A DNA stretch of 64,000 nt from Pseudomonadota bacterium. Lineage in GTDB: Bacteria; Pseudomonadota; Alphaproteobacteria; Acetobacterales; Acetobacteraceae. Positions within the stretch are counted from its first letter, which is position 1; the number at the start of each line of letters is the position of its first letter. A model generated the notes under the pieces. That model was not told the DNA's origin. It made no database searches and saw only the letters and a program-made list of their open reading frames with translations. The position numbers and the translations under genes are program-made. Where the stretch lies: assembly GCA_018240405.1 (NCBI GenBank), contig JAFEFW010000616.1:1-64000 (forward strand). Reading direction: 5' to 3'. Shown in pieces: positions 12,177 through 64,000 of the stretch.

Positions 12177-12397
12177 GCGGTTTCCCCCTGAGTTCGTGGA
12201 CGGTTTTGCCATGCCGTGGGCATCCGCTCAATGCGACACCGAGCTTGGCTTGCAACGCTGCAGGCGGCGCGGGACCGATCCTACGAGGCGCCAAGGTACT
12301 GCGATGCGGTGCGGAGAGATCATACGAGCGATCGGCCGCCCAATTCGCTTGGCATCCTCTTCTAACCAGGGCATGGTGCAGCCATCCCCAGGCACCC

Positions 12398-12582
12398 GCC
12401 GCGGGAGAGAGCGGGTGCGTACCCGCCGCCGAAGGCGCAACCGGCCCCCGGAAACGCTCAGGCAAAAGGACCGCTGCGGGTTGGGGTCTCTGGAAAGCCG
12501 GGTCGCGCGCAGGCGCGGCCTGCACCGACGGAGTAACGGGCTGCGGCCCCGAATCTCTCAGGTCCCGTGACAGAGGGGGGTC
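12398..12582 (+). promoter_or_regulatory. Tandem glycine riboswitch upstream of gcvTHP
   Basis: Two consecutive aptamers are recognisable. The first has GGGAGAG, the CGCCGAAGG-CGCAA core and CTCAGGCAAAAGGACCG. The second has CTCTGGAAAG, the CACCGACGGAG core, TCTCAGGTCCC and GACAGAGGGGG. These are the conserved elements of the glycine riboswitch class in cooperative tandem arrangement. It ends about 50 bases before the gcvT ATG. In related operons glycine binding switches expression on. The rest of 12177-12397 shows no gene. Confidence 0.93.
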
Positions 12583-12631
12583 ATCGTAACCGGCAGCCGC
12601 CGGATGGTGACCCAAGTCGCGGAGTTTATGC

Positions 12632-13807: not shown

Positions 13808-13821
13808 GAAGGATCACAGGG

Positions 13822-14208
13822 ATGGCTGCAAAAAACGCCGATCGCCGCTTCACCAAGGATCACGAATGGGTAGTGCTGGATGGCGATATCGCCACGGTCG
13901 GCATCACCGACCACGCGCAGGAGCAGCTGGGTGACCTTGTGCATGTCGATCTGCCGCAACTCGAGCGCGAGGTGGCCGAGGGCGAAAGCTGCGCGGTGGT
14001 CGAGAGCGTGAAGGCCGCCTCCGATATTTTCGCGCCCCTGGCCGGTAAGGTGGTCGAAATCAATGAAACGATCGTCGAAGACCCATCGATCGTGAACAGC
14101 GACGCCGAAGGCGAGGGCTGGTTCTTCCGCATTGAGGTCGACGATCCGGACGCGTTCGAGCAGTTGATGGATCAGGACGCCTACGACGAATACCTGGAGA
14201 CGCTGTAA
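13822..14208 (+). CDS. gcvH: Glycine cleavage system H protein
   Basis: A 128-residue lipoyl carrier protein that shuttles the aminomethyl group between P, T and L proteins. The lipoylation site is Lys64 in the ESVKAASD hairpin. HEWV near the N-terminus and [16 protein letters not shown]-type sequence near the end are family hallmarks, with full length. AAGGATCACAGGG ahead of the ATG provides a ribosome site, 14 bases after gcvT. Confidence 0.97.
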
Positions 14209-14210
14209 GC

Positions 14211-17087
<2,877 letters not shown>

Positions 17088-50108: not shown

Positions 50109-51728
50109 ATGGAGAATGACGCAGCAAAGGCCGTGCCGACGGGCGCGCCAACCTGGATTGCTCGACGACCGGTCGCGGTGGATCTTGGTGGGCCGGTTGA
50201 CGTACCATTCGAGCCTTTTCTCGCGGAGTGGATAGACGAGCCGGTCATCGTCCGCTTTCGGGCGGTGGCTCAACGGCACGCCGACAAGCTCGCGATCGAC
50301 GACGGCGACACCCATCTGACCTACTCCCAGGTCCAGGCCGCGGTCGATGCGCTGGCGGCGCGGCTTAACAACGCTACGCCCCTCGGGAGCGCCGTTGCTG
50401 CGCTGTTGGACAATACCACTGCATTCCCGATTGCCTTTCTCGCGTGCCTGGCGTCTGGCCGGACAATCGTGCCGGTCGACATTAGTTATCCGCCGGACCG
50501 GCAGGAGGCGATCCTACGCGAATGCGGCGCCGCCGCCTTCATCGTTGGTCCAGGCATTGAGCCGCCTGCAAGCCTCGCGGACACGCTGGTGCGCCTGACC
50601 GTGCCGCTCCAGGGTGATTCCGGGTCCCCATCCCCGGACACCGCGGTGGACGTCGATGCTCCGGCGGGCGTCATCTACACATCCGGCAGCACCGGCCAGC
50701 CGAAGGGCGTGGCGTTCTCGCAGCGGCAGTTTCTGGCGGCGCTCGCGGAATACATCAACGCGTGCCACATCGGGCCGCATGACCGGATTGTCGGCCTTGC
50801 CTCGCTTGGCGGCGGCAGTGCGCGAGAGGCGTTGGCCGCGTTGCTCACCGGCGCGACGTTCCACATCGCCGATCTGCGCCAGCACGGTATCGGGCCGGCA
50901 CTGCGCAAGCTGCGCATGGCGGAGGTCACGGTGCTGGCTTTCGTGCCGTCAGTGTTGCGCAGCCTGTGCGGCGTGCCAGGGATCGATGCGGCTCTGGCAA
51001 GCCTGCGGATTGTCGATCTGTTCGGTGAACTGGTCACAGCGGAAACAGTGGACGCGCTGCGCGCTGTCCTGCCGGCAACCTGCCACATCCGCGTCAGCCT
51101 GGGTTCCACCGAGACGATGGTACTGTTCCACTGGTTCGTCCCGCGTGGCGTCCAGGCCGGCAACGGCTTGCCATGCGGCTACCTTGCCAGTCGGGCGTCC
51201 ATTGCATTGTTGGATGAGTACGGCGCGCCGGTGCCCGAAGGCGAGGTGGGAGAAGTTGTCGTGCGTGGCCGTTCGATCGCAAGCGGCATGTGGCGCGACG
51301 GCGCGGTACTGCCGGGCCCGTTCCAGCCGGATCCTGCCGATCCACAGGCCCGCATCTTCCACACCGGCGATCTGGTTCGCATGGATAAGGACGGGCTGGT
51401 GACATTTGTCGGGCGCCGCGACCGGCGGGTGAAGATCCGCGGTTTGCGCGCCGATCCTGCCGATGTCGAGACGGCCCTCCACCGGATTCCGGGCGTTGCC
51501 GATTGCGCCGTAATAACCCGGGTGGATGGGGACGAAGTGGCGTTCGTCGCCTACGTGGAGTCGGGTGGCGTCGACCTCGCCGGCGGCGCGATCCGCGATG
51601 CACTCCGGCTGGAATTGCCGGCGCATATGATGCCGGCGGACATCCATGTCATTTCACGGCTTCCGCGCCTGCCCAACTTCAAGCCCGACCTGGTGGCGCT
51701 CGCCCAGGGCGCCGCGGCGCCGCATTGA
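50109..51728 (+). CDS. NRPS-like adenylation enzyme (acyl-AMP ligase), first gene of the sterol operon
   Basis: A 539-residue stand-alone adenylate-forming enzyme. Core motifs: YTSGSTGQPKGV (190-201, A3), SLGSTETM (A5), FHTGDLVRM (417, A7), GRRDRRVKIRG (A8) and NFK with catalytic Lys525 (A10). The A4 region reads LASLGGGS instead of the FDxS that holds the amino-binding Asp in amino-acid-activating domains, so a carboxylic acid other than an alpha-amino acid is more likely. No carrier domain is attached; a free ACP is the last gene of the operon (63398-63667), suggesting they work together. Role in a sterol pathway is unknown: acyl conjugation or carrier-tethered oxidation are possibilities. 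Confidence 0.85.
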   Translation: MENDAAKAVPTGAPTWIARRPVAVDLGGPVDVPFEPFLAEWIDEPVIVRFRAVAQRHADKLAIDDGDTHLTYSQVQAAVDALAARLNNATPLGSAVAALLDNTTAFPIAFLACLASGRTIVPVDISYPPDRQEAILRECGAAAFIVGPGIEPPASLADTLVRLTVPLQGDSGSPSPDTAVDVDAPAGVIYTSGSTGQPKGVAFSQRQFLAALAEYINACHIGPHDRIVGLASLGGGSAREALAALLTGATFHIADLRQHGIGPALRKLRMAEVTVLAFVPSVLRSLCGVPGIDAALASLRIVDLFGELVTAETVDALRAVLPATCHIRVSLGSTETMVLFHWFVPRGVQAGNGLPCGYLASRASIALLDEYGAPVPEGEVGEVVVRGRSIASGMWRDGAVLPGPFQPDPADPQARIFHTGDLVRMDKDGLVTFVGRRDRRVKIRGLRADPADVETALHRIPGVADCAVITRVDGDEVAFVAYVESGGVDLAGGAIRDALRLELPAHMMPADIHVISRLPRLPNFKPDLVALAQGAAAPH

Positions 51729-52810
51729 CTGTCACGCCGCCGAGCTTTGCGGATGCGCGCACCCGCCGTCAGATGGCGCGGGCGGCGGGCCTGCATCCCG
51801 ATCACTGGTATCCGGTTGCATGCAGCAATCGCTTGCGGCAGGGCCAGGTCATCGAAACGAAATTCCTCGACCGGCCGATCGCCGTATTCAGGGGCGCCGA
51901 TGGCAAGGTGGGCGCGATCGAGAACCGCTGCGCGCACCGCCAATTGAAGCTGTCACTCGGGGCGGTGCAAGGCTGCACGCTGGTCTGTGCCTATCACGGT
52001 TGGGCCTATGATACATCAGGCCGATGCGTTTCGGTTGCACATGATACGTTCGGCAAGTCCATTGATCGGATTCGTGTCGGATCGTTCCCGGTTCGGGAGC
52101 GCTACGGCCTGATCTGGATCTTTCCTGGCGCGCCCGCGCGCGCGTCTCAGACTCCCATGCCGGAAATTCCGGAGCTTGAAGCACCAGCACCCTGGGCGTC
52201 GGTCGCCGCCGACTTTGTCTGGTCATCGCACTTCTCGATGATCATTGAGAACGTCAGTGACTTCACCCACGCGCATCTTCACCGCAAATACCGACCATTC
52301 AACGACGCGAAGCTGATCAGCCTTGAAACGGTCGGCACGCAGGTCCGGTTGACCTACGACGTGCTGGTCGGCGACGGCCGCATCAGCAAGCATTTCGTCG
52401 ACCGCACGCGCACGCGGGTGGATCGCATGGACCTGTGCTTCGAGTACCCGTACCAGTGGTCGAACACCGGCGATCGTATCAAGCACTGGTGCTTTGTCCT
52501 GCCGATGGACGCTCGCACGACCCATGCATTCTTCATTTTCTACTTCGACGCTGTCCAGATCCCGCTGCTGCGCCGGCCGATGCCGCGCGCCCTGCAGGGC
52601 ATCCTGATGCGCCTCGCAAAGCGGCTGCTGATTACGCCATTGCTGTCGCAGGACGGCCAGATGGTGCAGGCTGAGCAGCAAGCGTTCGAGCGCTATCCCG
52701 ATACCGCCGGCCACGAGCTCAATCCGGCGGTGCCGGCGTTCCAGCAGGTGATCATCGACCAATGGCGGCGGCACGCCATGCCGGCGAATGTGACGCATGA
52801 ACCAGCCTGA
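51725..52810 (+). CDS. Rieske oxygenase, SdmA-like (sterol C-4 demethylation candidate)
   Basis: A 361-residue Rieske non-haem iron oxygenase. The [2Fe-2S] motif is CAH...CAYH (Cys69, His71, Cys88, His91). The mononuclear iron site is ENVSDFTHAHLH (Asp179, His182, His186). In known bacterial sterol producers (Methylococcus) the Rieske enzyme SdmA oxidises the C-4 methyl group and acts with the reductase SdmB; here an SdmB-like SDR is encoded directly downstream, overlapping by 14 bases. The start is taken as TTG at 51725, overlapping the previous stop (TTGA); ATG at 51773 is an alternative. The reductase and ferredoxin partners are not in the operon. Confidence 0.85.
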   Translation: MTVTPPSFADARTRRQMARAAGLHPDHWYPVACSNRLRQGQVIETKFLDRPIAVFRGADGKVGAIENRCAHRQLKLSLGAVQGCTLVCAYHGWAYDTSGRCVSVAHDTFGKSIDRIRVGSFPVRERYGLIWIFPGAPARASQTPMPEIPELEAPAPWASVAADFVWSSHFSMIIENVSDFTHAHLHRKYRPFNDAKLISLETVGTQVRLTYDVLVGDGRISKHFVDRTRTRVDRMDLCFEYPYQWSNTGDRIKHWCFVLPMDARTTHAFFIFYFDAVQIPLLRRPMPRALQGILMRLAKRLLITPLLSQDGQMVQAEQQAFERYPDTAGHELNPAVPAFQQVIIDQWRRHAMPANVTHEPA

Positions 52811-53822
52811 GGGCCCGGCGGCCGGACTGGCTCTGGTGACCGGTGCGGGCGGGCATTTGGGTGCCAACCTGGTGCGGCAACTGGTGGCGACCGGCCAGCC
52901 TGTGCGTGCCATGCTGCACGCCGACGCTGAACGCGCGACTCTCGATGGGCTCGGCGTCCATGCGGTGGTCGGCGACTTGCGCGATCGCCGCTTCCTGGCC
53001 GGTGCGGTCACCGGCTGCACGCAGGTCTATCATTGCGCTGCCCGTATCTCGACCATGCCGGGGCGAGAGGCGGAGATATTCACCAGCAACGTCATCGGCA
53101 CCCGGCTGCTGCTGCAGGCAGCCTCCGATGCGGGCGTGACCAAGGTCGTCGTCACCAGTTCCTTCAGCGCCGTCGGCCACCGGCCGGATGGCACACCGAG
53201 TGATGAAACGGAGCCGTTCAATCCGCTGGAGCCGCATCTGCCATACGAGCAGACAAAGGCGGCGGCGGAACATGAATGTCTGAAGGCCTGCGCCGAAGGA
53301 CAAACCGTTGTCATCGCCACCTCGACGGCGATTCTGGGACCGAACGACTTCAAGCCATCCCGCATGGGGCGCGTGCTGCTGAACTACGCGCGCGGCCGGC
53401 TGCCCGCGTACATCGCGGGCGGTTTTGAGTTCGTCGCGGCCCAGGACATCGCACGCGGGCACCGGCTGGCGATGGCAAACGGACGAGCGGGCCAGAAATA
53501 CATCTTTTCCAGCGGCTTCCGGACAATGGACCAGATCATGGACACGTTCCACGGCATAACCCTGCCGCGGCGGCGGCCGCTGCGGCTCTCGCCGGCGGTG
53601 ATGGGCGGTGTCGCGACGGTCAGTCTCCGCCTGGGCCGGCTGGTTGCGCCGAACCGGGAGCCGCTGCTGACGCCGGCGGCGCTTCGCCTCCTGCGTCTCT
53701 CGCGCCAGGCCGATATCTCCAAAGCCCGTCGCGAACTCGGCTTTGAGCCGACCCCGGTGGAAGCGGCGATCGAAGATGCGTGGCAGGACTTCGTCACGCG
53801 TGGCATGGCGGCGCGGGCATGA
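52797..53822 (+). CDS. 3beta-hydroxysteroid dehydrogenase/C-4 decarboxylase-like SDR (SdmB-like)
   Basis: A 341-residue extended short-chain dehydrogenase. NAD(P) motif TGAGGHLG (15-22), VVGDLRD, YHCAA, and the catalytic pair Tyr150-x3-Lys154 in YEQTK. Sequence style (VIGTRLLLQAASDAGVTKVVVTSS, PSDETEP) is that of the 3beta-HSD/NSDHL family, which oxidises the sterol 3-OH with loss of a C-4 carboxyl group. Position after the Rieske gene matches the bacterial sdmA-sdmB arrangement. Its stop overlaps the methyltransferase start by ATGA. Hydroxysteroid dehydrogenase without decarboxylation, or reduction of a 3-keto sterol, are alternatives. Confidence 0.85.
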   Translation: MNQPEGPAAGLALVTGAGGHLGANLVRQLVATGQPVRAMLHADAERATLDGLGVHAVVGDLRDRRFLAGAVTGCTQVYHCAARISTMPGREAEIFTSNVIGTRLLLQAASDAGVTKVVVTSSFSAVGHRPDGTPSDETEPFNPLEPHLPYEQTKAAAEHECLKACAEGQTVVIATSTAILGPNDFKPSRMGRVLLNYARGRLPAYIAGGFEFVAAQDIARGHRLAMANGRAGQKYIFSSGFRTMDQIMDTFHGITLPRRRPLRLSPAVMGGVATVSLRLGRLVAPNREPLLTPAALRLLRLSRQADISKARRELGFEPTPVEAAIEDAWQDFVTRGMAARA

Positions 53823-54853
53823 GCGGGCGGCCGGCCGACCACGGAACGCCCGGCCTGCTGCGCTCTGCGCGTGGCACTGCGGCGCCGGACGCAGTGTCGG
53901 CGTCCGTCGACCGCTACCACGCCCTCTATCAGGGTCAGGCGGACCAGCGCCGGCGCGACTATACATCCGTCGTTAACACATATTATGATCTCGTTACGGA
54001 TTTCTATGAGTATGGCTGGGGCCAGTCGTTCCATTTCGCGCCGCGTGCCCGCGGCGAAACGTTTCGTGAATCGATTCTGCGCCATGAGCAGTGGCTTGCC
54101 CTGCGGCTGGGCCTTGTGCCTGGCAGCCAGGTGCTGGACGTCGGATGCGGCGTTGGCGGGCCGATGCGGACGATCGCGCGCTTTGCCGACTGTCACATCA
54201 CCGGACTCAACAACAACGACTATCAGGTCGAGCGTGCGCGCCTGCATAACCGCCGCGCCGGGCTGGACGCGCGCTGTACCGTTGTGAAGGGCGACTTCAT
54301 GGCTATGCCGTTTCCGGCAGACAGTTTCGATGCCGCGTACGCCATTGAGGCCACCGTTCACGCCCCGCGCCTTGCCGGCGCCTATGCGGAAGTGGCGCGC
54401 GTCCTGAAACCCGGCGGGATGCTGGCCAGCTATGAGTGGGCCATGACGCCCCGCTTCGATCCGGCAGAGCCGGAACACCGCCGCCTGCGGGCGGAGATCG
54501 AGTTCACCACCGGCATCGTCCACCTTTCGACTGCCGCCGAGGTCGAAGCCGCGGTCGTGGAGGCCGGGCTGGAGCTGCTGCAGTTCGAGGACAGATTCCT
54601 CGCCAGCGAGGTGTCCTGGCTCGAGCGGCTCGAACCGGCGAAGAACCCGTTCGCGTTGCGCCGCTCCTCGGGTATCGGCAAGCATTTCACCACGGCCGCC
54701 GTCCGCGTGCTGGAGGCGTTGCGGGTTGCCCCGCGCGGAAGCACGACCGTCGCGCGGCTACTGGAGCAGAGTGGCGAGGTCGTGGTCGCGGCCGGACAGG
54801 CGGGCATTTTCACCCCCGGCCTGCTGGTCGTGGCGCGCAAGCCGGCGTCGTGA
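53819..54853 (+). CDS. smt: Sterol C-24 methyltransferase (ERG6/SMT-like)
   Basis: A 344-residue SAM-dependent methyltransferase with nearly all hallmark blocks of eukaryotic sterol methyltransferases. These are the sterol-binding YYDLVTDFYEYGWG-QSFHF (Region I, Tyr63-Gly68), SAM motif LDVGCGVGGP (106-115), GLNNNDYQ (about 132), KGDFMAMPF, AIEATVHAPRL and VLKPGGMLASYEWAMT with PEHR. The match to yeast Erg6 is strong by eye across about 200 residues. The enzyme should methylate the side-chain delta-24 double bond of a sterol. Bacterial SMTs are rare and have been reported mainly from metagenomes. The start overlaps SdmB-like by ATGA, and the stop overlaps the cyclase start by GTGA. Confidence 0.93.
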   Translation: MSGRPADHGTPGLLRSARGTAAPDAVSASVDRYHALYQGQADQRRRDYTSVVNTYYDLVTDFYEYGWGQSFHFAPRARGETFRESILRHEQWLALRLGLVPGSQVLDVGCGVGGPMRTIARFADCHITGLNNNDYQVERARLHNRRAGLDARCTVVKGDFMAMPFPADSFDAAYAIEATVHAPRLAGAYAEVARVLKPGGMLASYEWAMTPRFDPAEPEHRRLRAEIEFTTGIVHLSTAAEVEAAVVEAGLELLQFEDRFLASEVSWLERLEPAKNPFALRRSSGIGKHFTTAAVRVLEALRVAPRGSTTVARLLEQSGEVVVAAGQAGIFTPGLLVVARKPAS

Positions 54854-56850
54854 CGGGTTGGGCTGCGGCGGCGGCACGTGGGACGGAACGGCTGCTGGCG
54901 CAACAGGGTACGGCGGGCTGCTGGGAGGGCGAGGTCGTCTGGTGCCCGGTGATCACCGCGCAGGTGGTGCTGGCCTACGCGGTCATGCGGCGTCCGATCC
55001 CGGAAGACCGGCGGCGGCTGATCCTGCGGCATTTCGCGCGCACACGGCGCCCGGACGGCGGGTGGGGCCTGCATCCGGAGTCACACGCCTACCTGTTCGT
55101 CACGACGCTGGTGTACGTCGCGGCCCGCCTGCTGGATGAACCGCCGGACGGTGCGCTGCTGCATGATGCGACCGTCTGGCTCCGGCGGCACAAACAGGGC
55201 CTTGGTACGCTGCCAAGCTGGGGACGGTTCTGGCTGGTACTGCTGGGCCTATACGAGCGCGACCGGCTGACGGTCTGTCCGGCGGAGTTCTTCCTGCTGC
55301 CGTCATCCTTCCCGATTGCCGCGGACCGGCTGTATTGCCACACGCGCGCCATCTACCTTGGCATGGCGTACCTGACCGGGATCCGGCTGCAGGCGGATCT
55401 GGGGCCTCTGGGCGAGACGCTCCGGCAGGAGCTGGCGAGCTTTACGTGCCCCGGCCACCAGCCGCGCTACGAGATTGCGGCGACGGATGTCTACGTGCCG
55501 CCTGGCAGAGGCCTCCGGATAACGTATGAAATCATGCGCCGTCTCGGGCCGGTTTGGCACAAGGTGCCGGGCAGCGCTGGCTTGCGGCGGCGCGCGCTGG
55601 CGCGTTGCCTGTCCCGCATCCGGGCGGCGCAGATCGGTTCGGCCTATCAGGGTCTGTCGCCGGTGAATGGGCTGCTGAATACGCTCGCGCTTTGGGCGCA
55701 TGATCCGAACGGGGACGACACGCAAGCCAGCATCGCCGGGCTGGAGGCGTGGTGCTGGCGGGACGAAGCGGATGGGCTGCGCTATGCGGGCGCCCGCTCG
55801 ACGAGCTGGGACACCGCGTTCGCGTTGCAGGCGCTGGTCGAGGCCGGCGACATATCACTGGACCAGCATCCCGTCCTGCGCCGGGCCTATGCCGGTCTCG
55901 CCGCACTGCAGCTGACCACTCCGTCGGCCGTGCTCGAGGAAGGACGCCAGGACCCTGTTGGCGGCTGGTGCTTTGGCGAACCGGCGCATGGCTGGACCGT
56001 CAGCGACTGCGCCGCGGAAGCGGTCAGCGCCCTGCTGCTGTGTCACGGCGTTTCGCACCTGATTGCGCCGGAAGACCGCATGCCGGCTGGCCGGATCACC
56101 GCGGCGGTCGGCTTTCTCCTGGCGCGTCAGAATGATGACGGCGGCTTCGGCACCTATGAGCGGCGGCGGGGAGGCCCGCTTCTTGAGCGGCTGAACCCGT
56201 CGGAGATGTTCGGTGCCTGCATGACAGAGCGATCTTATATTGAGTGCTCGGCATCGGCGATCCGCGCGCTGCACCATATCATCGTATGCGCGCCTACGAG
56301 CGTTGACCCACCGATGCGCGTTGCCTGTCAGCAGGCAATCGGGCGCGCCCGGGATTTTCTTTTGAGTTCACAACGAACTGACGGTGCGTGGGCGGGCTTT
56401 TGGGGCATCAATTTCATTTACGCGACCGGCTTCGCCGTGGCGGCACTGCGTGATGCAGGTCTTCCGACGGATCATCCGTCCATTCAACACGCCGTCTCGT
56501 TTCTATGTATGACACAACGTGACGATGGCAGCTGGGGCGAACATTTCTCAGGCTGTCTGACGGGAAGCTATGTCGGCAATCCTACGGGCCTTGTCATCTC
56601 AACGAGTTGGGCTGTACTTGCCTTGTTGCGCGCCTCCGCTGACCTGCTGCCGGCGGCGCGGCGCGGGCTGGACTGGCTTGCCGCCCGGCAGCAGCCCGAT
56701 GGCGATTGGCCGCGGGATTCCGTCAATGGCGTGTTCTTCGGCACCGCCATGCTGGATTACCGTTTGTACAACACCTACTTCCCGCTTTGGGCCCTCAGGC
56801 TCGGTAACCGGCGCGCGCTTTCCGTTGCAGTTGCACGAAGTGAGCCGTAA
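54850..56850 (+). CDS. osc: Oxidosqualene cyclase
   Basis: A 666-residue triterpene cyclase. It is assigned to the oxidosqualene rather than the squalene-hopene group by VSDCAAE (catalytic Asp386; consensus DCTAE) in place of DxDD, RLYCHTRAIYLGMAYL (His164), LNPSEMFGACM...SYIECSAS (Tyr463) and DGDWPRDSVNGVF...YNTYFPLWAL. Several QW repeats (e.g. DGGWGL, DGSWGE, DGDWPR) are present. By-eye alignment places Gly314, His380 and Val384 at the human positions 381, 449 and 453: lanosterol synthases carry T-(C/Q)-V and cycloartenol synthases Y-H-I, so the product is not predictable. GTG start overlaps the SMT stop. A squalene epoxidase-like gene lies downstream. Confidence 0.93.
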   Translation: MTGWAAAAARGTERLLAQQGTAGCWEGEVVWCPVITAQVVLAYAVMRRPIPEDRRRLILRHFARTRRPDGGWGLHPESHAYLFVTTLVYVAARLLDEPPDGALLHDATVWLRRHKQGLGTLPSWGRFWLVLLGLYERDRLTVCPAEFFLLPSSFPIAADRLYCHTRAIYLGMAYLTGIRLQADLGPLGETLRQELASFTCPGHQPRYEIAATDVYVPPGRGLRITYEIMRRLGPVWHKVPGSAGLRRRALARCLSRIRAAQIGSAYQGLSPVNGLLNTLALWAHDPNGDDTQASIAGLEAWCWRDEADGLRYAGARSTSWDTAFALQALVEAGDISLDQHPVLRRAYAGLAALQLTTPSAVLEEGRQDPVGGWCFGEPAHGWTVSDCAAEAVSALLLCHGVSHLIAPEDRMPAGRITAAVGFLLARQNDDGGFGTYERRRGGPLLERLNPSEMFGACMTERSYIECSASAIRALHHIIVCAPTSVDPPMRVACQQAIGRARDFLLSSQRTDGAWAGFWGINFIYATGFAVAALRDAGLPTDHPSIQHAVSFLCMTQRDDGSWGEHFSGCLTGSYVGNPTGLVISTSWAVLALLRASADLLPAARRGLDWLAARQQPDGDWPRDSVNGVFFGTAMLDYRLYNTYFPLWALRLGNRRALSVAVARSEP

Positions 56851-56859
56851 CGTAATCAA

Positions 56860-57588
56860 ATGGCTTCCACGGTCGTCGATGTTGAGCCGGTGCGCACCGC
56901 GGATACGCGTTTGCGGCCAGTGGCCGCGTTTCGCGCACTGCGGGATCTTGCGAGAAGCGAAGGCAAGGATCTGCATGCCGGCGTAGCGTTTCTGCGCGCG
57001 ACTCAGGGCCGGTCCGCAATACGCGCGTTTGCCCGGTTCCGCGCCGGCGATGTCGGGCGGCGCATCCTCGATCGCCGTATCATCCTGCGTGACCGCCTGC
57101 TGGAGCGTGATGCGCTGGAACGCCTGCCGGCGGAAAGTCTTGGGCGCAGTTATCTTGCGTTCATGGAAAGAGAAAACGTGGCTGTGCCCAGCCTGCTGGA
57201 CCTGGCGCAGAGCTGCCCGGAGGTGGCGCGAACGGCGGAGGAGCGGCTGTTCGCGGAGCGTACCCATGTCATGCACGACCTTTGGCACGTCGTCGCCGGT
57301 TATGGCACGGAGCCGCTGGGCGAAGTCTGCATCCTGGCAATCCGCAGTGCGCAGATGCGCCATGTCGGTGTGTGGATTCTCTGCCTTGGCGGTATGCGGC
57401 ATGTAGAGAATGATCTCGGCCGGGCACGGGCGCGAGCGGCGGTGCGGGAGGCCTTCACACGTGGTCGGCGCGCAGCTTGGCTGTACGGCGTCGACTGGGA
57501 GGCCATGCTGCCGCAGCCGCTGGAGGCGGTGCGTCGCGCGCTCAACCTGACGCCGCCGGTGCGGTACCAGTCGGCGATCGGCGCGTGA
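56860..57588 (+). CDS. Coq4-like protein, copy 1
   Basis: A 242-residue protein with the Coq4 metal-binding signature HDLWHVVAGYGTEPLGE (His139, Asp140, His143, Glu155). Flanking features also fit: LRALRDLARSEGKDLHAGVAFL near the start and LGRSYLAFM ahead of the motif. Coq4 binds isoprenoid lipids and in eukaryotes is needed for the oxidative decarboxylation at C1 of ubiquinone precursors. No other ubiquinone gene is present here, so a role on the triterpenoid is suspected. It starts nine bases after the cyclase stop and overlaps copy 2 by GTGA. Confidence 0.85.
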   Translation: MASTVVDVEPVRTADTRLRPVAAFRALRDLARSEGKDLHAGVAFLRATQGRSAIRAFARFRAGDVGRRILDRRIILRDRLLERDALERLPAESLGRSYLAFMERENVAVPSLLDLAQSCPEVARTAEERLFAERTHVMHDLWHVVAGYGTEPLGEVCILAIRSAQMRHVGVWILCLGGMRHVENDLGRARARAAVREAFTRGRRAAWLYGVDWEAMLPQPLEAVRRALNLTPPVRYQSAIGA

Positions 57589-58325
57589 GGCCAGCTGCCA
57601 ACCGCATCCGGCCGCTTCAGGCACTTCGTGCCTTGCGTGCGCTCGCCCGATCCGGCGGCCAGGATTATGTGCAGGCCGCTACATTCATGAATGCGACCGA
57701 GGGACGGTCCGGCCAGCGGGGCTTTGCCCGGTTCCGGCAAAGCCCGGACGGCGCGCGCTTGCTACGCGACCAACCCTCGCTGCGCGACGTCCTTGGCCAA
57801 GACCCCAGCGCTCTCGCGGCCTTGCCGTCCGCGTCGCTCGGCCGCGCCTACTACGACTTCATGACGGTGCACGGCTTCTCAGTCGAGGGCATGGCCGAAC
57901 TCGGGCAGGCCGGCGGCGCTCGGCCGATGGATGCGGACGAGCGGTGGTTCGCGGAGCGAATGAACACGCTGCACGATGTACGCCATGTCCTGGCTGGGTA
58001 TGGCCAGGAACCGCTGGGCGAATTGTGCCTGCTGGCGTTCCGCTATGCCCAGGCGCGGCATCCGGGCATGGCGTTCTTCGCCATCACCTGGGGCCTGAAA
58101 ATGGCACGCGAGCAGCCGGGGGTACCTGTTCTGGCAGCCGTGCGCGAAGGCTATCGCCGTGGCCGGGCGGCGGTCTGGCTCGACGACCTGCCGTGGGAGA
58201 CGCTGCTGGCAGAGCCGTTATCCGCACTGCGCGAACGGCTGCGGATCACGCCGCCGAGCCTCTACGCGGGCATTGGCGCTCCGGCGCCGGCCACCGCCTT
58301 CGCCGGCGCGGAGCGCCCGGCATGA
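57585..58325 (+). CDS. Coq4-like protein, copy 2
   Basis: A 246-residue paralogue of the preceding gene. Its motif is HDVRHVLAGYGQEPLGE (His130, Asp131, His134, Glu146), and it shares LRALRALARSGGQDYVQAATFMNATEGRSG and LGRAYYDFM. Both copies keep all proposed metal ligands, so neither looks degenerate; they may form a heterodimer or act on successive intermediates. The GTG start overlaps the stop of copy 1, and the stop overlaps the next ATG (ATGA). The C-terminus is longer and Ala/Pro-rich (GAPAPATAFAGAERPA). Confidence 0.85.
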   Translation: MRPAANRIRPLQALRALRALARSGGQDYVQAATFMNATEGRSGQRGFARFRQSPDGARLLRDQPSLRDVLGQDPSALAALPSASLGRAYYDFMTVHGFSVEGMAELGQAGGARPMDADERWFAERMNTLHDVRHVLAGYGQEPLGELCLLAFRYAQARHPGMAFFAITWGLKMAREQPGVPVLAAVREGYRRGRAAVWLDDLPWETLLAEPLSALRERLRITPPSLYAGIGAPAPATAFAGAERPA

Positions 58326-59596
58326 GCACTGACGTCGATGTGGTGGTCGCCGGCGGCGGCGTCGCCGGCAGCACCGCCGCCGCGGCTTTGGCTGCTCTGG
58401 GCTGGTCGGTGCTGATCGTGGAGCCGGGACAGCATCCGGAGCGCCGGCTGGCCGGGGAATTGATCCACCCGGCCGGCGTCGCAGGACTGGAAACGCTCGG
58501 CTTGCTGGGCAGCGACTTCCAGGCCGCCGTACGGTTGCATGGCTTCACCGTTTTTCCGACAGCGTGCGAAACAGGCTGCATAGACCTGCCCTATCTGTCC
58601 GGGGCAGACCGGCCCGGTGTCGCTCTGTCGATGGACCATTCTGCGATCGGCAAGGCCTTACTGGGCGCCACGCTAGCCCACCCCCGGGTAACGCTTGCGC
58701 AAGGCTGGCGCGTCGGCGGCCTAAATGCACCCGATGATGCGCCGATCGTCACGCTACGCCGGAATGCAGTGACTGAGACCGTCACCTGCCGGCTTGTCGT
58801 CGCCGCGGATGGCGCAGCGTCAGCGGTTCGCGGTTATGCCGGGCTGCATCACCGGCGGATCCGCAACGCCGTTCTCACCGGCTACCGGGTCCCAGCCGAG
58901 GCGCTGCCGCGCCCAGGCCGTGGACATGTTTTTACCGCCTGCGCCGGCCCCGTCCTGGCATACGCCATCAGCGGCGAGGACGCACGGGTGCTGTTCAACC
59001 GCCGGCTCGACGGGACCGTACGGGAGCCGCACGCGCCGCCGACGCTCGATGCACTGCCACCTGTCCTGCGGGAGACGGTTGCGCGCGCGATCACAGCCCA
59101 ATCAGGCCTGCGCTTCGTCAGCAGCGACGTCAGGGTCAGCGGCATAAGTCGCGGTCGCGTCGTCCTGGTCGGCGATGCCGGCGGGAGCTGCCACCCGATC
59201 AGTGCCAGCGGCATGACGATGGGGATCACGGACGCGGTTCACCTTGGCCAGGCTATTGCCGGATGCGGTGGAGATATCGCGCAGGCCCTTACGATGTACG
59301 GCCGGGAACGCCGGTCCCGTCAGCGGGCGCGCGTGCTGCTGGCCGCGATGCTGCATGAGGTGCTGAGTGGTGACGCCACCACCATGGGGAGCATGCGAAG
59401 CGCTATGCATCGCTATTGGTTGGGCAGCGACCGGGCGCGCGCCGCCTCAATGGCACTGCTTGGGATGGATGATCTGCGGGTCGGCACCATCCTGCGTGAA
59501 TTCGTCCACGTCGGGCTCGCAGGATCACTCAGTGCATTCGCCCGGTTTTCGCTGCCAATGATGCGGCATGTCGTTGGCACGATGCGGGTGCAATAG
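58322..59596 (+). CDS. FAD monooxygenase, squalene epoxidase-like
   Basis: A 424-residue class A flavoprotein monooxygenase. FAD motif VVAGGGVAGSTAA near residue 8. The block RRLAGELIHPAGVAGLETLGL (41 onward) matches the GEL-QPGG---L-LGL signature of squalene monooxygenases, and GDAGGSCHPISASGMTMGITDAV (284 onward) matches their GDA-N-RHPLTGGGMTVAL block, with differences (Cys/Ser for Met/Arg, Ser-Ala-Ser for TGG). It most likely makes the 2,3-oxidosqualene used by the cyclase encoded three genes upstream. A role as another lipid oxygenase is possible because the match is not exact. No N-terminal membrane helix is evident; the C-terminal helices may attach to membrane. Confidence 0.8.
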   Translation: MSTDVDVVVAGGGVAGSTAAAALAALGWSVLIVEPGQHPERRLAGELIHPAGVAGLETLGLLGSDFQAAVRLHGFTVFPTACETGCIDLPYLSGADRPGVALSMDHSAIGKALLGATLAHPRVTLAQGWRVGGLNAPDDAPIVTLRRNAVTETVTCRLVVAADGAASAVRGYAGLHHRRIRNAVLTGYRVPAEALPRPGRGHVFTACAGPVLAYAISGEDARVLFNRRLDGTVREPHAPPTLDALPPVLRETVARAITAQSGLRFVSSDVRVSGISRGRVVLVGDAGGSCHPISASGMTMGITDAVHLGQAIAGCGGDIAQALTMYGRERRSRQRARVLLAAMLHEVLSGDATTMGSMRSAMHRYWLGSDRARAASMALLGMDDLRVGTILREFVHVGLAGSLSAFARFSLPMMRHVVGTMRVQ

Positions 59597-59599
59597 GCC

Positions 59600-60916
59600 A
59601 TGGGAATGCCCCTGATGCAGCCTCGCTTCGATGTCGTGATCGCCGGCGCCGGCCCCGGCGGCGCGACTTGCGCCTGGTATCTTGCACGCGCGGGCCTGCG
59701 CGTGGCCCTCCTCGACCGGCATACGTTTCCGCGCGACAAGGTTTGCGGCGATGCGATCTGCAGCCGCGCGCAGATGCATCTTTCCCGCATGGGCGTATTG
59801 CAAGAGATCATGGCCAATGATGAGGGGCATCCGGCTGCCATCGGCGGCATGGTGAGCCCCGGCGGCGTGGTTGCCATCGGTGATTCCAGCGGGCACATCG
59901 CCTCGTCACCGGTCATCGCGATCCGCCGGATCGACATGGACCACCGGATCGTGGTGGCAGCGCAAACCGCCGGCGCGACATTGCTGGAACGCTTCGACGT
60001 CGCCGACGCAACGCTGGACCGGACGGCGGGCACATGGACGGTCCTGTCGGCGGCGGGTGCGACGGTGCAGGGCCGCGTCCTGGTCGCGGCCGACGGCGCG
60101 AACTCGCGGCTCGCCCGGCGCCTCGGCGTCGTTGACGGCCCGGCCGAGGCGGTCTGCAGCCGCGCCTATATCGCCGCGCCAAGCACATCATTTGGCTGTG
60201 ATGGCGTGGCGTTCTACCGCCGCGACCTGCTGCCCGGCTACTGTGCCTTGTTCCGGGAGTCGCGTGAGGAGCTGAACTTCTGCCTCTACATCATTCCGGG
60301 CGGCGGCGCCGGCACGGGGGATCTTCGTGCGATGCACGAGTCGGTGCTGCGGGACGATCCGTTTGTCAGCCGTGCGGTGGGTCCACGCGCCGAAATTGGC
60401 GCCATGAAGGGTGCGCCCCTGCGGTTGGGTGGCATCCAGCGCAGCTATGCCGACCATCTGATTGTGCTGGGCGACGCTGCGGGCCAGATCGACCCGCTGA
60501 CCGGTGAGGGCATCCAGTACGCCATGGATGCCGCGGAAATCGCCGCCGAGACGCTGCAGTCCCTGCTTCCCCCGGGCCGGCTGACCGAGGCCGATCTGAG
60601 CGTGTACCATGCCCGCTGGTATCGCGCTTTCGGTCGGGATTTCGCCTGGAGCGCCCGAATCGCCGCGTTGTGCGCCCGCCACCCTGGACTGCTCGACACC
60701 GGTGCGCGAGCGCTGCGAGATCATGGCGCACCGCTGCTGGGGCAGTGGGCGGAGGTGATGACGGGCGCACGACCGAAGACGCATTTCCTGCGCCCAGCCA
60801 TCGTCATGCCGATGCTGCAGTCCCTGCTGCGGCACACGTTCCGGCTGCGTGGCGAACCGCCGGCCGGGCCATCGCAGGAGCCGGACGCGACGGCCATCCT
60901 GCGTCGCGCAGCCTGA
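59600..60916 (+). CDS. Geranylgeranyl reductase-family flavoprotein
   Basis: A 438-residue FAD enzyme. It has the Rossmann motif FDVVIAGAGPGGATCAWYLAR (10 onward), RDKVCGD (46-51), which is the typical Cys motif of geranylgeranyl reductases, a GRVLVAADGANSRLARRLG block, and GDAAGQIDPLTGEGIQYAM (291 onward). The family saturates isoprenoid double bonds using FADH2 and is also close to some halogenases and hydroxylases. In this operon it could reduce a sterol side-chain or nuclear double bond, which is inference. Starts three bases after the previous stop; ATG at 59606 is an alternative start. Confidence 0.82.
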   Translation: MGMPLMQPRFDVVIAGAGPGGATCAWYLARAGLRVALLDRHTFPRDKVCGDAICSRAQMHLSRMGVLQEIMANDEGHPAAIGGMVSPGGVVAIGDSSGHIASSPVIAIRRIDMDHRIVVAAQTAGATLLERFDVADATLDRTAGTWTVLSAAGATVQGRVLVAADGANSRLARRLGVVDGPAEAVCSRAYIAAPSTSFGCDGVAFYRRDLLPGYCALFRESREELNFCLYIIPGGGAGTGDLRAMHESVLRDDPFVSRAVGPRAEIGAMKGAPLRLGGIQRSYADHLIVLGDAAGQIDPLTGEGIQYAMDAAEIAAETLQSLLPPGRLTEADLSVYHARWYRAFGRDFAWSARIAALCARHPGLLDTGARALRDHGAPLLGQWAEVMTGARPKTHFLRPAIVMPMLQSLLRHTFRLRGEPPAGPSQEPDATAILRRAA

Positions 60917-60924
60917 AGGCGGCC

Positions 60925-62370
60925 ATGGCGGCGTCGGCAACGCTTGGTCTGCTGCAGCTTACAAGCGAGGCCGTGGCGAACGCTGTCCAGGATCGGATTT
61001 CCATCGTCGGCAAGTGCCTGCCGCCGTCGCCGCCGATCCGCCATCGTTGGCTGGGGCACCTGCACGACATCCGCACCGAGGGATTCGTTGCGTTTCATGC
61101 TCGCTGCGTGCGGGAATACGGACCGCTGGTGCTGCTGCGGTTCGGCCCGCCCGCGCTTGGCCGGCGCTTTCTGCTGGTGGCCGACCCTGATGTCGCTTGG
61201 CAGACACTGACGCAGGATCTGCAGCGCAACTTTCCCATCGGTACGGGACCTCGGCTCGCCTTTGGCGATGACGCCGTGTTCTGCACCGCGGCCGCCGATC
61301 CGGTCCACGAACGGCGGCGTGCCCTTATTCGGCGCCACGTGACGCCAGACATGCTGCGCCGCCATGTGGCACAGATGGATGCAGTGTGGGGACCGGCGGT
61401 GGAGACACTCGTCTCGATCCCGGCCGGCTGTGGCTCAATCGAGCGCTTCAACATCAATCCGGCCATATTGTTTGCCACACAAGAGGCGGCCATCCGCTGC
61501 TGGATGAGCGTGTCGCCGGGTCCCAACGAGGTGCTGTCGACGCTGGAGCGTTATTTCGACACCGGCAATCTGCTGAGCGAAATTCTTTTCAACACCTGGT
61601 TCTTTCTGCATGCGAAGCGGCGGGTCGGGGCGCTTCGCACGGCCTATGCGCCGCTCCTGGCACGAGCACTGGACATGCTGGCGGACGGCGACGATGCAGC
61701 GCCGTTTATTGCCAGTTCGCTGCGGGAACTGGGTTGGGATACCGCCAGGGCGCGGGACGACGCTGCCTACCGGGCCGCTTTATTGGCGGACCTGCCGATC
61801 TATCAGCATCTGTTCACCGTGATGCTGCCGTCGATGGGCTCTACAGGAGGAACGATCCTGTTCCTCTTGCGCCAACTCGCGGCTGACGTCTCCCTGCAGG
61901 ATGATCTCCGGCGTGAACTGGCAGCCTGCGACCTGGCCATGGACCCTTGCCCACCACCGCTCACCGGGCAGGCGATTCGCGAGTGTCTGCGGCTGTACCC
62001 GCAGGCTGCCGGCATTACCCGTTACCTGACGACCGCACGCACCTATGGCGGGTACTTCGTGCCGAAAGGCTCCTACACCTTCACGCACCTGCACACGCTG
62101 CATCGGCATGCCTGCCGCCACGCGGAGCCGGATCGATTCAATTCCGCCAGGGAGGCCGGGCCGCCTGGAAGCTGGGCCGGCTTCTCCATCGGGCCGCTGT
62201 CCTGCACCGGCCGCAGTTTTGCCGAGTTGCATATCGCAGTGGCGCTGAAGGCCATACTGACACGCTATCGCCTCACCGGCGCAGAGCCGGATCCGGACGC
62301 CCATAATGATTATCAGGGATCGGTGACGTTGCAGCCGCAACCGTTTTCCATCGGGTTCACGTTGCCATGA
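60925..62370 (+). CDS. Cytochrome P450
   Basis: A 481-residue P450. The K-helix ECLR (Glu353, Arg356), the PDRF meander, and the haem-binding loop FSIGPLSCTG with Cys427 are present. The I-helix reads LPSMGSTGGT (302-310), lacking the usual acidic residue of the AG(D/E)T oxygen-activation motif. It does not show the CYP51 hallmark GQ-T(S/T), so C-14 demethylation cannot be assumed. No membrane anchor is visible. Electron-transfer partners are not in the operon. It starts eight bases after the flavoprotein stop and overlaps the next gene by ATGA. Likely oxidises the sterol skeleton or the ACP-bound acyl group. Confidence 0.88.
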   Translation: MAASATLGLLQLTSEAVANAVQDRISIVGKCLPPSPPIRHRWLGHLHDIRTEGFVAFHARCVREYGPLVLLRFGPPALGRRFLLVADPDVAWQTLTQDLQRNFPIGTGPRLAFGDDAVFCTAAADPVHERRRALIRRHVTPDMLRRHVAQMDAVWGPAVETLVSIPAGCGSIERFNINPAILFATQEAAIRCWMSVSPGPNEVLSTLERYFDTGNLLSEILFNTWFFLHAKRRVGALRTAYAPLLARALDMLADGDDAAPFIASSLRELGWDTARARDDAAYRAALLADLPIYQHLFTVMLPSMGSTGGTILFLLRQLAADVSLQDDLRRELAACDLAMDPCPPPLTGQAIRECLRLYPQAAGITRYLTTARTYGGYFVPKGSYTFTHLHTLHRHACRHAEPDRFNSAREAGPPGSWAGFSIGPLSCTGRSFAELHIAVALKAILTRYRLTGAEPDPDAHNDYQGSVTLQPQPFSIGFTLP

Positions 62371-63401
62371 CGGTCGTCCTGCTGGTTGACGGCACGCGGG
62401 TATTGGCGGAGCGGAGTGAGGCACCGTTCGTCCGGTTCAACATCAACCTGCCGGCCCTGGAAATCCGCCTGATCTCCGGTTTTGCGGCTCCGGCCGACCT
62501 GACCTCCTCCGGCGATACGCGCCGCCTTGGGGTCCTGTTGCGTGGCGCCCGGTGGATCCGCGGCGAAGAGGTCTTTGACGTCCCGCTGGATTCGCCCGGT
62601 TTCGTCGACGGCTTCCACCCTGTGGAAAATCACGGAAATGGGTCAGTGCGATGGACCTCCGGCGATGCGGGACTGCCGCCGCAGGCCATACCAGCCTGGA
62701 GTGGTCCTGTTGTCCTTGAATTGAACATCAAGGAATGGGACGGCAGTTCGCTGAATACGATGCAGAGCCCGGAGGCTTCGCTCCTGAGCCGTTTCGAAAG
62801 TCTGGGCGAAGACTGCGACTTCAGCCTGACGCAACGTCAATACCTCGTTGAGCCGCCGCTATCGCTGTATCGCTGGGGCGGCGCGCCTGTCGGCGACCTG
62901 ATTCGCGGTCTGCTATGCCGCTTTGACGGACTCGGCGACCCTGAAACGACCGAACTGATCTGGTTTCATGAACAGTACTTCCTGCGCACGCCGTTTGTGT
63001 CGATGCACACCGGATGCGTGAAGGAACAGGACGATGCCGGCCGCCAGGAACTGCTTGAGGTCGGGCGGTCCACCTTGCGAATCCTGCGGCGGAAACTATT
63101 GAAGGATATTTCCAGGGGCGATCGGATATTCGTGTTCAAGAGCTTGTCCGGAACAATCGATCAAACTCAGATGTTGGCCCTGCATGGCGCACTCCGCGAA
63201 CTTGGCCCGTCAGCGCTGCTGTGCGTGCAGCGGACGGATGATCCACACCGTGCCGGGACGGCGGAACGCATTGCTCCCGGGCTTTATGGCGGGTACCTGG
63301 ACCGGTTCCTGTCCTCGACCGACTCGCGCGAGGTGCGGCTTGCCATATCGGCCGGCTGGCTCGCCGTGTGTGCCGCCACACTCGCGCTGCACACCGAATG
63401 A
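62367..63401 (+). CDS. Protein of unknown function with FESLGE-C motif
   Basis: A 344-residue protein not assigned to a characterised family. Residues 1-125 are beta-rich, with VRWTSGDAGLP and VVLELNI, resembling small beta domains in Acetobacteraceae surface proteins. From residue 143, FESLGEDCDFSLTQR...LYRWGG resembles an uncharacterised group (FESLGxNCEFGxVQR...LRW) found in alphaproteobacterial glycan loci, distantly like the DUF1796 papain-like proteins; Cys150 is the candidate nucleophile. Flanking overlaps (ATGA on both sides) tie it firmly to the P450 and ACP genes. A transferase or hydrolase acting on the carrier-bound acyl chain is one possibility; no function can be assigned. Confidence 0.75.
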   Translation: MTVVLLVDGTRVLAERSEAPFVRFNINLPALEIRLISGFAAPADLTSSGDTRRLGVLLRGARWIRGEEVFDVPLDSPGFVDGFHPVENHGNGSVRWTSGDAGLPPQAIPAWSGPVVLELNIKEWDGSSLNTMQSPEASLLSRFESLGEDCDFSLTQRQYLVEPPLSLYRWGGAPVGDLIRGLLCRFDGLGDPETTELIWFHEQYFLRTPFVSMHTGCVKEQDDAGRQELLEVGRSTLRILRRKLLKDISRGDRIFVFKSLSGTIDQTQMLALHGALRELGPSALLCVQRTDDPHRAGTAERIAPGLYGGYLDRFLSSTDSREVRLAISAGWLAVCAATLALHTE

Positions 63402-63667
63402 GCGGAGAGAGCCGCGCTGTGCCACAGGATCCTGAGCCATACGGTGCCCTTGAGGCCGTTGCCGCAACGGTACGGCGGCTGTGCAAGTCGCCGAACCTGG
63501 TCGTAACGCCGGAAACGAGGCTGGCTGACTTGCCGGGCTTGGACAGCTTGCGCGCATTGCACCTTGTGGCAACGCTGGAGGATCAGTTCGGTGTTGAAAT
63601 CGACGTGGCGGCTCTTGGTGAGCTTCGACGTGTCAGCGACATTCTCCACTGGCTTGAAAAGCGGTAA
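63398..63667 (+). CDS. Stand-alone acyl carrier protein
   Basis: An 89-residue carrier protein. The phosphopantetheine site is Ser50 in LPGLDSLRALHLV, followed by EDQFGVEIDV and a final helix, the normal ACP/PCP four-helix pattern. It starts by ATGA overlap with the preceding gene and ends the operon. It lacks the acidic richness of fatty-acid ACP and is closer to carriers used with discrete adenylation enzymes. The adenylation enzyme at the other end of the operon is the obvious partner. A bound acyl group could be esterified to a sterol hydroxyl, but no acyltransferase of known type is present. Confidence 0.9.
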   Translation: MSGESRAVPQDPEPYGALEAVAATVRRLCKSPNLVVTPETRLADLPGLDSLRALHLVATLEDQFGVEIDVAALGELRRVSDILHWLEKR

Positions 63668-63829: not shown

Positions 63830-64000
63830 TCACCGGCGCACCGGCGTCACCGGCACGTCGGTCAGATTGATCCGGAATTGCGGAAGCACATCCTTGAACG
63901 AGCCGGTGAGGGTTTCGTAGTACGCCGGATTTGCAGCGAGCGGGAACCGCCAGGCCCGGACCGGCGCACCGGTAGGCCCGTACTGCACGAACAACTCAGC
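63830..64000 (-). CDS. C-terminal end of an unidentified protein (partial)
   Basis: A minus-strand frame runs without stop from the window edge to a TGA at 63830-63832 and encodes 56 residues ending FKDVLPQFRINLTDVPVTPVRR. Sequence such as LFVQYGPTGAPVRAWRFPL has a protein-like pattern. No family is recognised. It converges on the ACP gene, and thus marks the end of the operon. The 162-base gap 63668-63829 shows no clear terminator. Confidence 0.45.
   Translation of the reverse strand, partial: AELFVQYGPTGAPVRAWRFPLAANPAYYETLTGSFKDVLPQFRINLTDVPVTPVRR

Follow-up and report, generated by a model that had tools for sequence, protein, structure and literature searches.

Here we show that a 64,000-base stretch of bacterial DNA (the window; bases 1-64000 of the 117,691-base contig JAFEFW010000616.1) carries twelve plus-strand genes (g1-g12, positions 50109-63667 in window coordinates) whose content, family membership (by domains, motifs and a cyclase tree) and conserved linkage identify them, with high confidence, as a steroid operon. 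The host is an uncultured bacterium related to acetic acid bacteria. We put at roughly 60% the probability that the cluster works as a sterol operon in an uncultured member of the Acetobacteraceae, leading to a 24-methyl, 14-methyl, C-4-demethylated steroid, probably conjugated to an acid via g1, g12 and g11.

All reactions, their order and the final product are predicted from the gene families present. In the proposed pathway, squalene would be epoxidised by g8 and cyclised to lanosterol by g5, after which a C-4 methyl group would be oxidised and decarboxylated by g2 and g3 together with the zinc Coq4-type proteins g6 and g7. The C-24 position would be methylated by g4, an isoprenoid or side-chain double bond reduced by g9, and the skeleton oxidised by g10, such that the product would be a 24-methyl, 14-methyl, C-4-demethylated steroid and not a cholesterol- or ergosterol-type sterol. 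Finally, g1, g12 and g11 would activate a carboxylic acid (probably not an alpha-amino acid), carry it as a thioester, and probably attach it to the steroid. Steranes alkylated in the side chain are interpreted as fossil traces of eukaryotes. Culturable members of the Acetobacteraceae exist, and a compact operon bearing a sterol methyltransferase (SMT) in a genus of this family provides a concrete gene set for expression.

Cyclase, methyltransferase and conserved linkage

The assignment of g5 (54850-56850, plus strand) as a lanosterol-type oxidosqualene cyclase (OSC), with lanosterol as its predicted product, draws on model scores, phylogeny and residues. With NCBIfam models the protein scored 726 bits for TIGR03463 (oxidosqualene cyclase) versus 206 bits for the hopene cyclase model, and it matched human lanosterol synthase at 347 bits. 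As the TIGR03463 score lies below the curated cut-off of 851, which was passed by no genome in searches of 60, 385, 398 and 398 genomes, g5 was classified on the basis of tree and residues. In a tree of 27 rows (15 OSCs and 12 hopene cyclases) it grouped with the human and plant OSCs and was split from all 12 hopene cyclases at 100/100, its neighbours being the cyclases of a congener (G023) and of an Acidisphaera metagenome-assembled genome (MAG; G479), followed by those of Methylotetracoccus and Minicystis, the closest outside the Acetobacteraceae group. Score difference and tree split together rule out a hopene cyclase, and the check set beforehand, a cyclase falling inside the hopene cyclase clade, did not refute the first-pass reading. 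Relative to human lanosterol synthase, His232, Val453, Asp455, Tyr503 and Trp581 are kept, the catalytic Asp lying within the DCxAE motif (VSDCAAE in g5); D455 and H232 have catalytic roles in the human enzyme. Valine at position 453 follows the rule given for lanosterol-type OSCs in the available text of PMC10152446.

The adjoining gene g4 (53819-54853, plus strand) is predicted to encode a C-24-type SMT, an identity based on its Sterol_MT_C domain (PF08498; 66 bits, cut-off 21.7) and on a stretch, FYEYGWGQSFHF, that is common to other SMT-like proteins; g4 has the YEYGWG region, an SMT motif. None of 14 control genomes matched PF08498; within the genus, two of the 34 genomes did so (at E 0.001), and these two also carry an OSC. 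A quinone methyltransferase is unlikely, given that UbiE-type models reached at most 34 bits versus 66 for Sterol_MT_C. The best 25 NCBIfam hits of g4 were other methyltransferases only, with no sterol-specific model among them, and its PDB hits, of which MitM was the nearest, contained no SMT. Taken with the cyclase tree, the domain and shared motif support the proposal of a first-pass annotation of the window that these genes form a sterol operon with an OSC and a C-24-type SMT.

Two flavoproteins complete this group. The FAD monooxygenase encoded by g8 (58322-59596, plus strand) is squalene-epoxidase (SE)-like, with predicted activity on squalene: it contains an SE domain (PF08491; 63 bits, cut-off 20.1), and its closest solved structure is a squalene monooxygenase (6c6n, 69 bits). 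The protein encoded by g9 (59600-60916, plus strand) belongs to the geranylgeranyl reductase (GGR) family (TIGR02032; 168 bits, cut-off 158.8) and keeps the KxCG cysteine, which is also found in the GGRs of two Sandaracinaceae loci (L020, L021) and is taken as the active-site Cys, with YCALFR in place of YxWxFP. Within the genus, g9 was matched at E 1e-40 or better by only two of the 34 genomes, and each of these has an OSC.

The gene order is conserved beyond the window genome (G000; 7.37 Mb, 681 contigs, 97.6% complete). In G023, the orthologs of g1-g4 (64-75% identity) and of g5-g12 (52-72%) lie on separate contigs as one block each, flanked on the far side by other sequence. In the Acidisphaera MAG (contig JAFAYM010000176.1, locus L018), the order is SdmA-SdmB-SMT-OSC-Coq4-SE-GGR-P450 (48-69%). 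Recurrence of the block order in this MAG and in another species of the genus rules out chance and misassembly as explanations of the cluster. A chimeric contig or contamination is likewise unlikely, considering that both genomes have the same genes and that the GC content of the individual cluster genes (0.61-0.70) spans the value for the window's first 50 kb (0.654). Apparent frameshifts, possibly assembly errors, occur in the GGR gene of G023 (L014 6134-7416) and the Coq4 gene of the MAG (L018 11953-12617). The window genome and the MAG have a common GTDB family, and the tree program labelled the MAG Acetobacteraceae, Pseudomonadota; Acetobacteraceae being an alphaproteobacterial family, this agrees with the alphaproteobacterial host suggested at first pass.

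With the window genome counted each time, OSC-strength matches were obtained in two of the 34 genus members (both within the 60-genome search), and samples of the class, the family and the phylum gave 7 of 385, 2 of 398 and 1 of 398, respectively. Within the genus, the SMT domain (E 0.001), the g9-type reductase (E 1e-40) and the OSC-strength match co-occur in the same two genomes. Five alphaproteobacterial genomes from three other families (L033-L037) have SdmB, SdmA, a GQHTS-type P450, an SE-like gene and an OSC together; an SMT follows on the opposite strand in L033-L035, only a short C-terminal piece is present in L036, and L037 has none. Beside the cluster of L035 (genome G392), three tandem SMT-like genes (12355-15478, minus strand) could permit repeated side-chain methylation.

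A protein search of plasmids returned no cyclase closer than 42% to g5. Among its matches, an OSC-like gene (41.6% identical) on plasmid p2 of Planktothrix agardhii (L083) neighbours four P450 annotations, an SDR, a Rieske protein, a phytoene/squalene synthase and FAD oxidoreductases, resembling a plasmid sterol/triterpenoid cluster. Another (40.7%), on a plasmid of Streptomyces sp. YIM 121038 (L084), precedes genes for a squalene/phytoene synthase and an FAD oxidoreductase in a region with transposases and recombinases.

Processing at C-4 and C-14

Oxidation of a C-4 methyl group is ascribed to g2 (51725-52810, plus strand), a predicted Rieske oxygenase, and C-4 decarboxylation with 3-keto reduction to g3 (52797-53822, plus strand), a predicted short-chain dehydrogenase/reductase (SDR). 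The best NCBIfam matches of these mutually adjacent genes are SdmA (NF052579; 371 bits) and SdmB (NF052578; 293 bits, with HpnA at 254), yet both fall below curated cut-offs of 600, for which reason we refer to them as SdmA-like and SdmB-like. With SdmA, SdmB and OSC models all matched below their cut-offs, the proteins appear to be divergent members of their families. The g2 protein is 69% identical to its counterpart in the Acidisphaera locus, 75% to that in L043, and 51% to a Minicystis homologue adjoining its SdmB and OSC. The g3 protein is 52% identical to the Minicystis homologue adjoining SdmA and 34% to a homologue near a hopene cyclase in L026.

The two Coq4-like genes g6 (56860-57588, plus strand) and g7 (57585-58325, plus strand) are among the unusual features of the operon. 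Both match PF05019 (73.6 and 63.1 bits, respectively; cut-off 22.9) and contain the full HDxxHx11E motif, at residue 139 in g6 and residue 130 in g7, and the complete motif is also present in the Coq4 copies read from G023, Acidisphaera and a further congener (G015). The available text of PMC7615680 describes COQ4, which carries the same motif, as a Zn-dependent decarboxylase that acts in ubiquinone synthesis. Unlike COQ4, g6 and g7 are a duplicate pair inside a sterol operon, and solved Coq4-family proteins are distant (3msq and 6e12, 28 bits with g7). Every PF05019 match in G000, G023 and G479 lies inside the sterol cluster, and hence the genes are not evident housekeeping ubiquinone genes. 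A tblastn search of the stretches fetched around the cyclases of L019-L026 and L033-L038 found no Coq4 relative. By analogy with COQ4, a natural guess is that g6 and g7 decarboxylate the C-4 acid made by the SdmA-like oxygenase, and if Coq4-like proteins do decarboxylate sterols, the family would gain a new role.

Retention of the 14-methyl group is suggested by g10 (60925-62370, plus strand), the only P450 gene of the operon (PF00067; 82.6 bits). GxHTS is the I-helix motif of CYP51. It is absent from all three P450s of this cluster type (the window, L014 and L018) and present in 8/8 other OSC-linked P450s examined (L019, L021, L022 and L033-L037), as GHHTS in L019, L021 and L022 and as GQHTS in L033-L037. 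The ERG24 family (PF01222) was found in 0/3 of the genomes G000, G023 and G479. It is present in both comparison genomes with GQHTS-type P450s (G324 and G220), and L033 has an ERG24-family gene inside its sterol cluster. The lack of GxHTS in g10 and of ERG24 in the genome makes retention likelier, and the predicted product probably keeps its 14-methyl group, a conclusion that we hold with moderate confidence.

The alternative is that the organism makes conventional 14-demethylated, 24-alkylated sterols, with C-14 demethylation by g10 as a divergent enzyme or by a P450 encoded elsewhere in the genome, and C-14 reduction by an unrecognised enzyme. That the other OSC-linked P450s all carry GxHTS speaks for this, as a P450 in this position is then usually a C-14 demethylase and g10 is the sole candidate in the operon. 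However, neither g10 nor its two orthologs have the motif, CYP51 structures match g10 at no more than 32 bits, below CYP11A1-like (52) and CYP3A (up to 43) structures, and ERG24 is missing from all three genomes that carry the cluster, so that we regard conventional sterols as rather improbable. The completeness ascribed to the operon at first pass is not supported: no recognisable C-14 demethylase is encoded in the operon and no recognisable C-14 reductase in the genome, nor was a tandem squalene-synthase pair found in this assembly.

The adenylation-carrier-g11 module

The remaining genes stand at the two ends of the operon. The first, g1 (50109-51728, plus strand), encodes a stand-alone adenylation enzyme of the nonribosomal peptide synthetase (NRPS) type, with an AMP-binding domain (PF00501; 199 bits) and a C-terminal domain, scoring 258 bits with an NRPS adenylation domain model versus 95 with a steroid-24-oyl-CoA synthetase model (cut-off 750). 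Alpha-amino-acid adenylation domains bind the amine through an Asp corresponding to GrsA 235. An alignment to 6mfy places Gly at this position in g1, and the homologues of G023 and G015 also have no Asp in the aligned stretch; because Gly replaces the amine-binding Asp, the substrate is likely a non-amino acid. The last gene, g12 (63398-63667, plus strand), encodes an acyl/peptidyl carrier protein (PF00550; 43 bits) with a DSL serine, Asp-Ser-Leu being invariant in 7/7 aligned sequences.

Between g10 and g12 lies g11 (62367-63401, plus strand), an unknown two-part protein with the motif FESLGEDC(D/E)F and a large genus-level paralogue family. It had no Pfam or NCBIfam match, its PDB sequence matches were insignificant (E 0.4 or more), and its single-sequence structure model was useless (mean pLDDT 36.5). 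The idea that g11 might be papain-like or of another known family was abandoned for want of any database match and of an invariant His in ten aligned members. The family has 14 matches in G000; of 60 genomes searched, 35 gave a match, every one of them from the GTDB family of the window genome. Near relatives (45-54%, almost full length) occur in the congeners G023, G015, G028, G002, G009 and G022, and in 6/6 of these a carrier protein follows. In G028, G009 and G022 the carrier gene is in turn followed by an adenylation gene on the same strand; the adenylation gene (ligase) of G002 lies on the other strand and is truncated at the end of the contig. The sterol genomes have the group split, with g1 first and g11 plus carrier last, bracketing the sterol genes. 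We interpret g1, g12 and g11 as a recruited module because g11 plus carrier, usually with an adenylation gene next to it, is present in five congeners that have no OSC, SMT or g9 match; that the module conjugates the steroid product is a prediction in which our confidence is low. Carrier-protein-based steroid conjugation, if true, would constitute a novel form of lipid tailoring.

Several observations weigh against the reading of a functional operon with conjugated product. In the cyclase, human position 457 is Ala instead of Thr, the sole case among the OSCs compared. When g9 was tested against the Bsr sterol C-24 reductase, the Cys was present and the YxWxFP motif was not, the latter being a feature of proven sterol C-24 reductases in the available text of PMC12004948. 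SdmB-type SDRs of other bacteria decarboxylate C-4 without Coq4 (available text of PMC10202945), and consequently g6 and g7 may serve another step. A non-canonical C-14 demethylase or reductase may be present, the negatives above covering the operon P450 and the ERG24 family only. The window genome has two SQS_PSY matches, one of them beside a gene that reads as crtI-like, with no tandem pair, while G023 and G479 have three matches each, tandem pair included; the only cyclase match in G000 is the OSC and thus no hopene cyclase was found, unlike in most genomes of the genus. A hopanoid operon may have been lost from G000 or may lie on a missing contig, and the latter would explain both absences. 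In the Acidisphaera MAG, the 21.9 kb fetched contain no relative of g11 or g12 and no second Coq4, and the only ligase is distant (26%), about 2.9 kb upstream of SdmA. Lastly, g11 and a carrier, mostly with an adenylation gene, occur in five congeners (G015, G028, G002, G009 and G022) with no OSC-strength, SMT or g9 match, although G002 and G028 are only 80% complete, which limits these negatives. The module therefore need not act on a sterol.

It follows that the module could be unrelated to sterols, a genus-level unit for some other product that merely flanks the sterol genes or is co-transcribed with them. Its stand-alone occurrence in G028, G009 and G022 (and, allowing for the strand and contig end noted above, in G002), as well as the Acidisphaera cluster, are consistent with this. 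Against it, all three module genes hold the same relative positions in both sterol-bearing congeners despite the split cluster of G023, where the g1 ortholog lies beside g2-g4, and the adenylation enzymes of these two genomes are 64% identical to each other and only 30-34% identical to the free-standing ones. We consider an unrelated module unlikely, though it deserves real weight. We are equally doubtful, at the other extreme, of a distinct pathway in which Coq4 decarboxylases would aid SdmA/SdmB, the 14-methyl group would be kept, and a tRNA- and CoA-independent adenylation-carrier module would conjugate an acid via g11, the founding member of a new transferase family.

A further possibility is that g1 and g12 load the steroid itself: a steroid acid made by g10 or g2 would be adenylated, tethered, and then processed, for example through decarboxylation by g6 and g7 or transfer by g11. 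The presence of carboxylate-capable oxygenases (g2, g10) and zinc decarboxylase-type proteins within one operon is compatible with such a scheme, as is G015, which has a g1-type enzyme, Coq4, a KshA_C Rieske gene, g11 and a carrier on two contigs with no SMT or g9 match. The Acidisphaera cluster, however, retains Coq4, P450 and SdmA with no close g1 and no g12, and g1 is nearer to NRPS adenylation domains than to steroid-24-oyl-CoA synthetase. We find steroid loading the least probable of these alternatives, and attachment of a separately activated acid to the steroid is preferred.

On the two contigs of G015 (L064 11444-13245 and L076 1-3564), the Rieske gene, of the KshA_C (3-ketosteroid 9alpha-hydroxylase) type, adjoins Coq4, and they also hold the g1-type adenylation gene (51%), g11, the carrier and a methyltransferase with no Sterol_MT_C match. 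The genome itself gave no SMT, g9 or OSC-strength match.

Published sterol loci and operon boundaries

An SMT-bearing bacterial sterol cluster is not new in kind, as related clusters are described in PMC10070321, PMC12004948 and PMC10202945. Brown et al. 2023 (PMC10070321, available text) report metagenomic clusters with sdmA/sdmB and SMTs active in vitro, and note that such activity in a (myxo)bacterial isolate still awaits confirmation; as here, OSC, SdmA/SdmB and C-24 SMT genes are clustered in uncultured bacteria. The sterol genes of Sandaracinus amylolyticus form largely one cluster and include the GGR-family C-24 reductase Bsr (PMC12004948, available text). Clustering and the GGR-family enzyme are common to this species and the window. 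From the cholesterol pathway of Sandaracinus amylolyticus and Minicystis rosea the window genome differs in having no CYP51-type motif in g10, no ERG24, and YCALFR in g9 versus YGWLFP in the Sandaracinaceae GGRs of L020 and L021. Calothrix sp. NIES-4105 has one 21-kb sterol cluster and Enhygromyxa has SdmABC (PMC10202945, available text); the single cluster of the former and the use of SdmA and an SDR for C-4 demethylation resemble the window, whereas the Calothrix cluster includes a C-14 demethylation homologue. The first-pass statement that known loci are usually an SE-OSC pair with scattered tailoring genes was therefore overstated.

What is unusual here are the full-motif Coq4-type proteins, a P450 with no GxHTS in combination with the absence of ERG24, and an adenylation enzyme, carrier and g11 that bracket the sterol genes. 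The terms Coq4, adenylat and carrier protein do not appear in the main texts of PMC10070321, PMC12004948 and PMC10202945, nor does alphaproteobacter in that of PMC10070321 (supplement outside scope). One alphaproteobacterial cyclase (Group 2c) has been noted previously in the available text of PMC4919349. Within the open-access literature, which includes few subscription papers and no supplementary tables, we found no report of an Acetobacteraceae sterol OSC, of Coq4 in sterol clusters, or of alphaproteobacterial metagenome-assembled sterol clusters.

The layout described at first pass, twelve co-directional genes with eight overlapping junctions and three gaps of 3-9 bases, was confirmed: seven junctions overlap by 4 bases and one by 14, and the gaps are 9, 3 and 8 bases. 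Domain calls likewise matched the proteins named there (adenylation enzyme, carrier, two Coq4-like proteins, GGR-like protein and P450), and the protein called unknown there had no domain match. The g1/g2 and g6/g7 overlaps depend on TTG and GTG starts, in place of which a codon-usage caller chose 51773 for g2 and 57687 for g7; the overlapping starts are favoured because the orthologs in G023 start with GTG at matching places. Promoter and terminator scans at both operon ends found nothing. Minus-strand genes bound the operon on both sides: upstream, one of the pyruvate:ferredoxin-oxidoreductase type (44553-49553), and downstream, one from 63830 (63830-64000 in the window, 830-4405 in L016) whose 1191-aa product has an eCIS_core domain.

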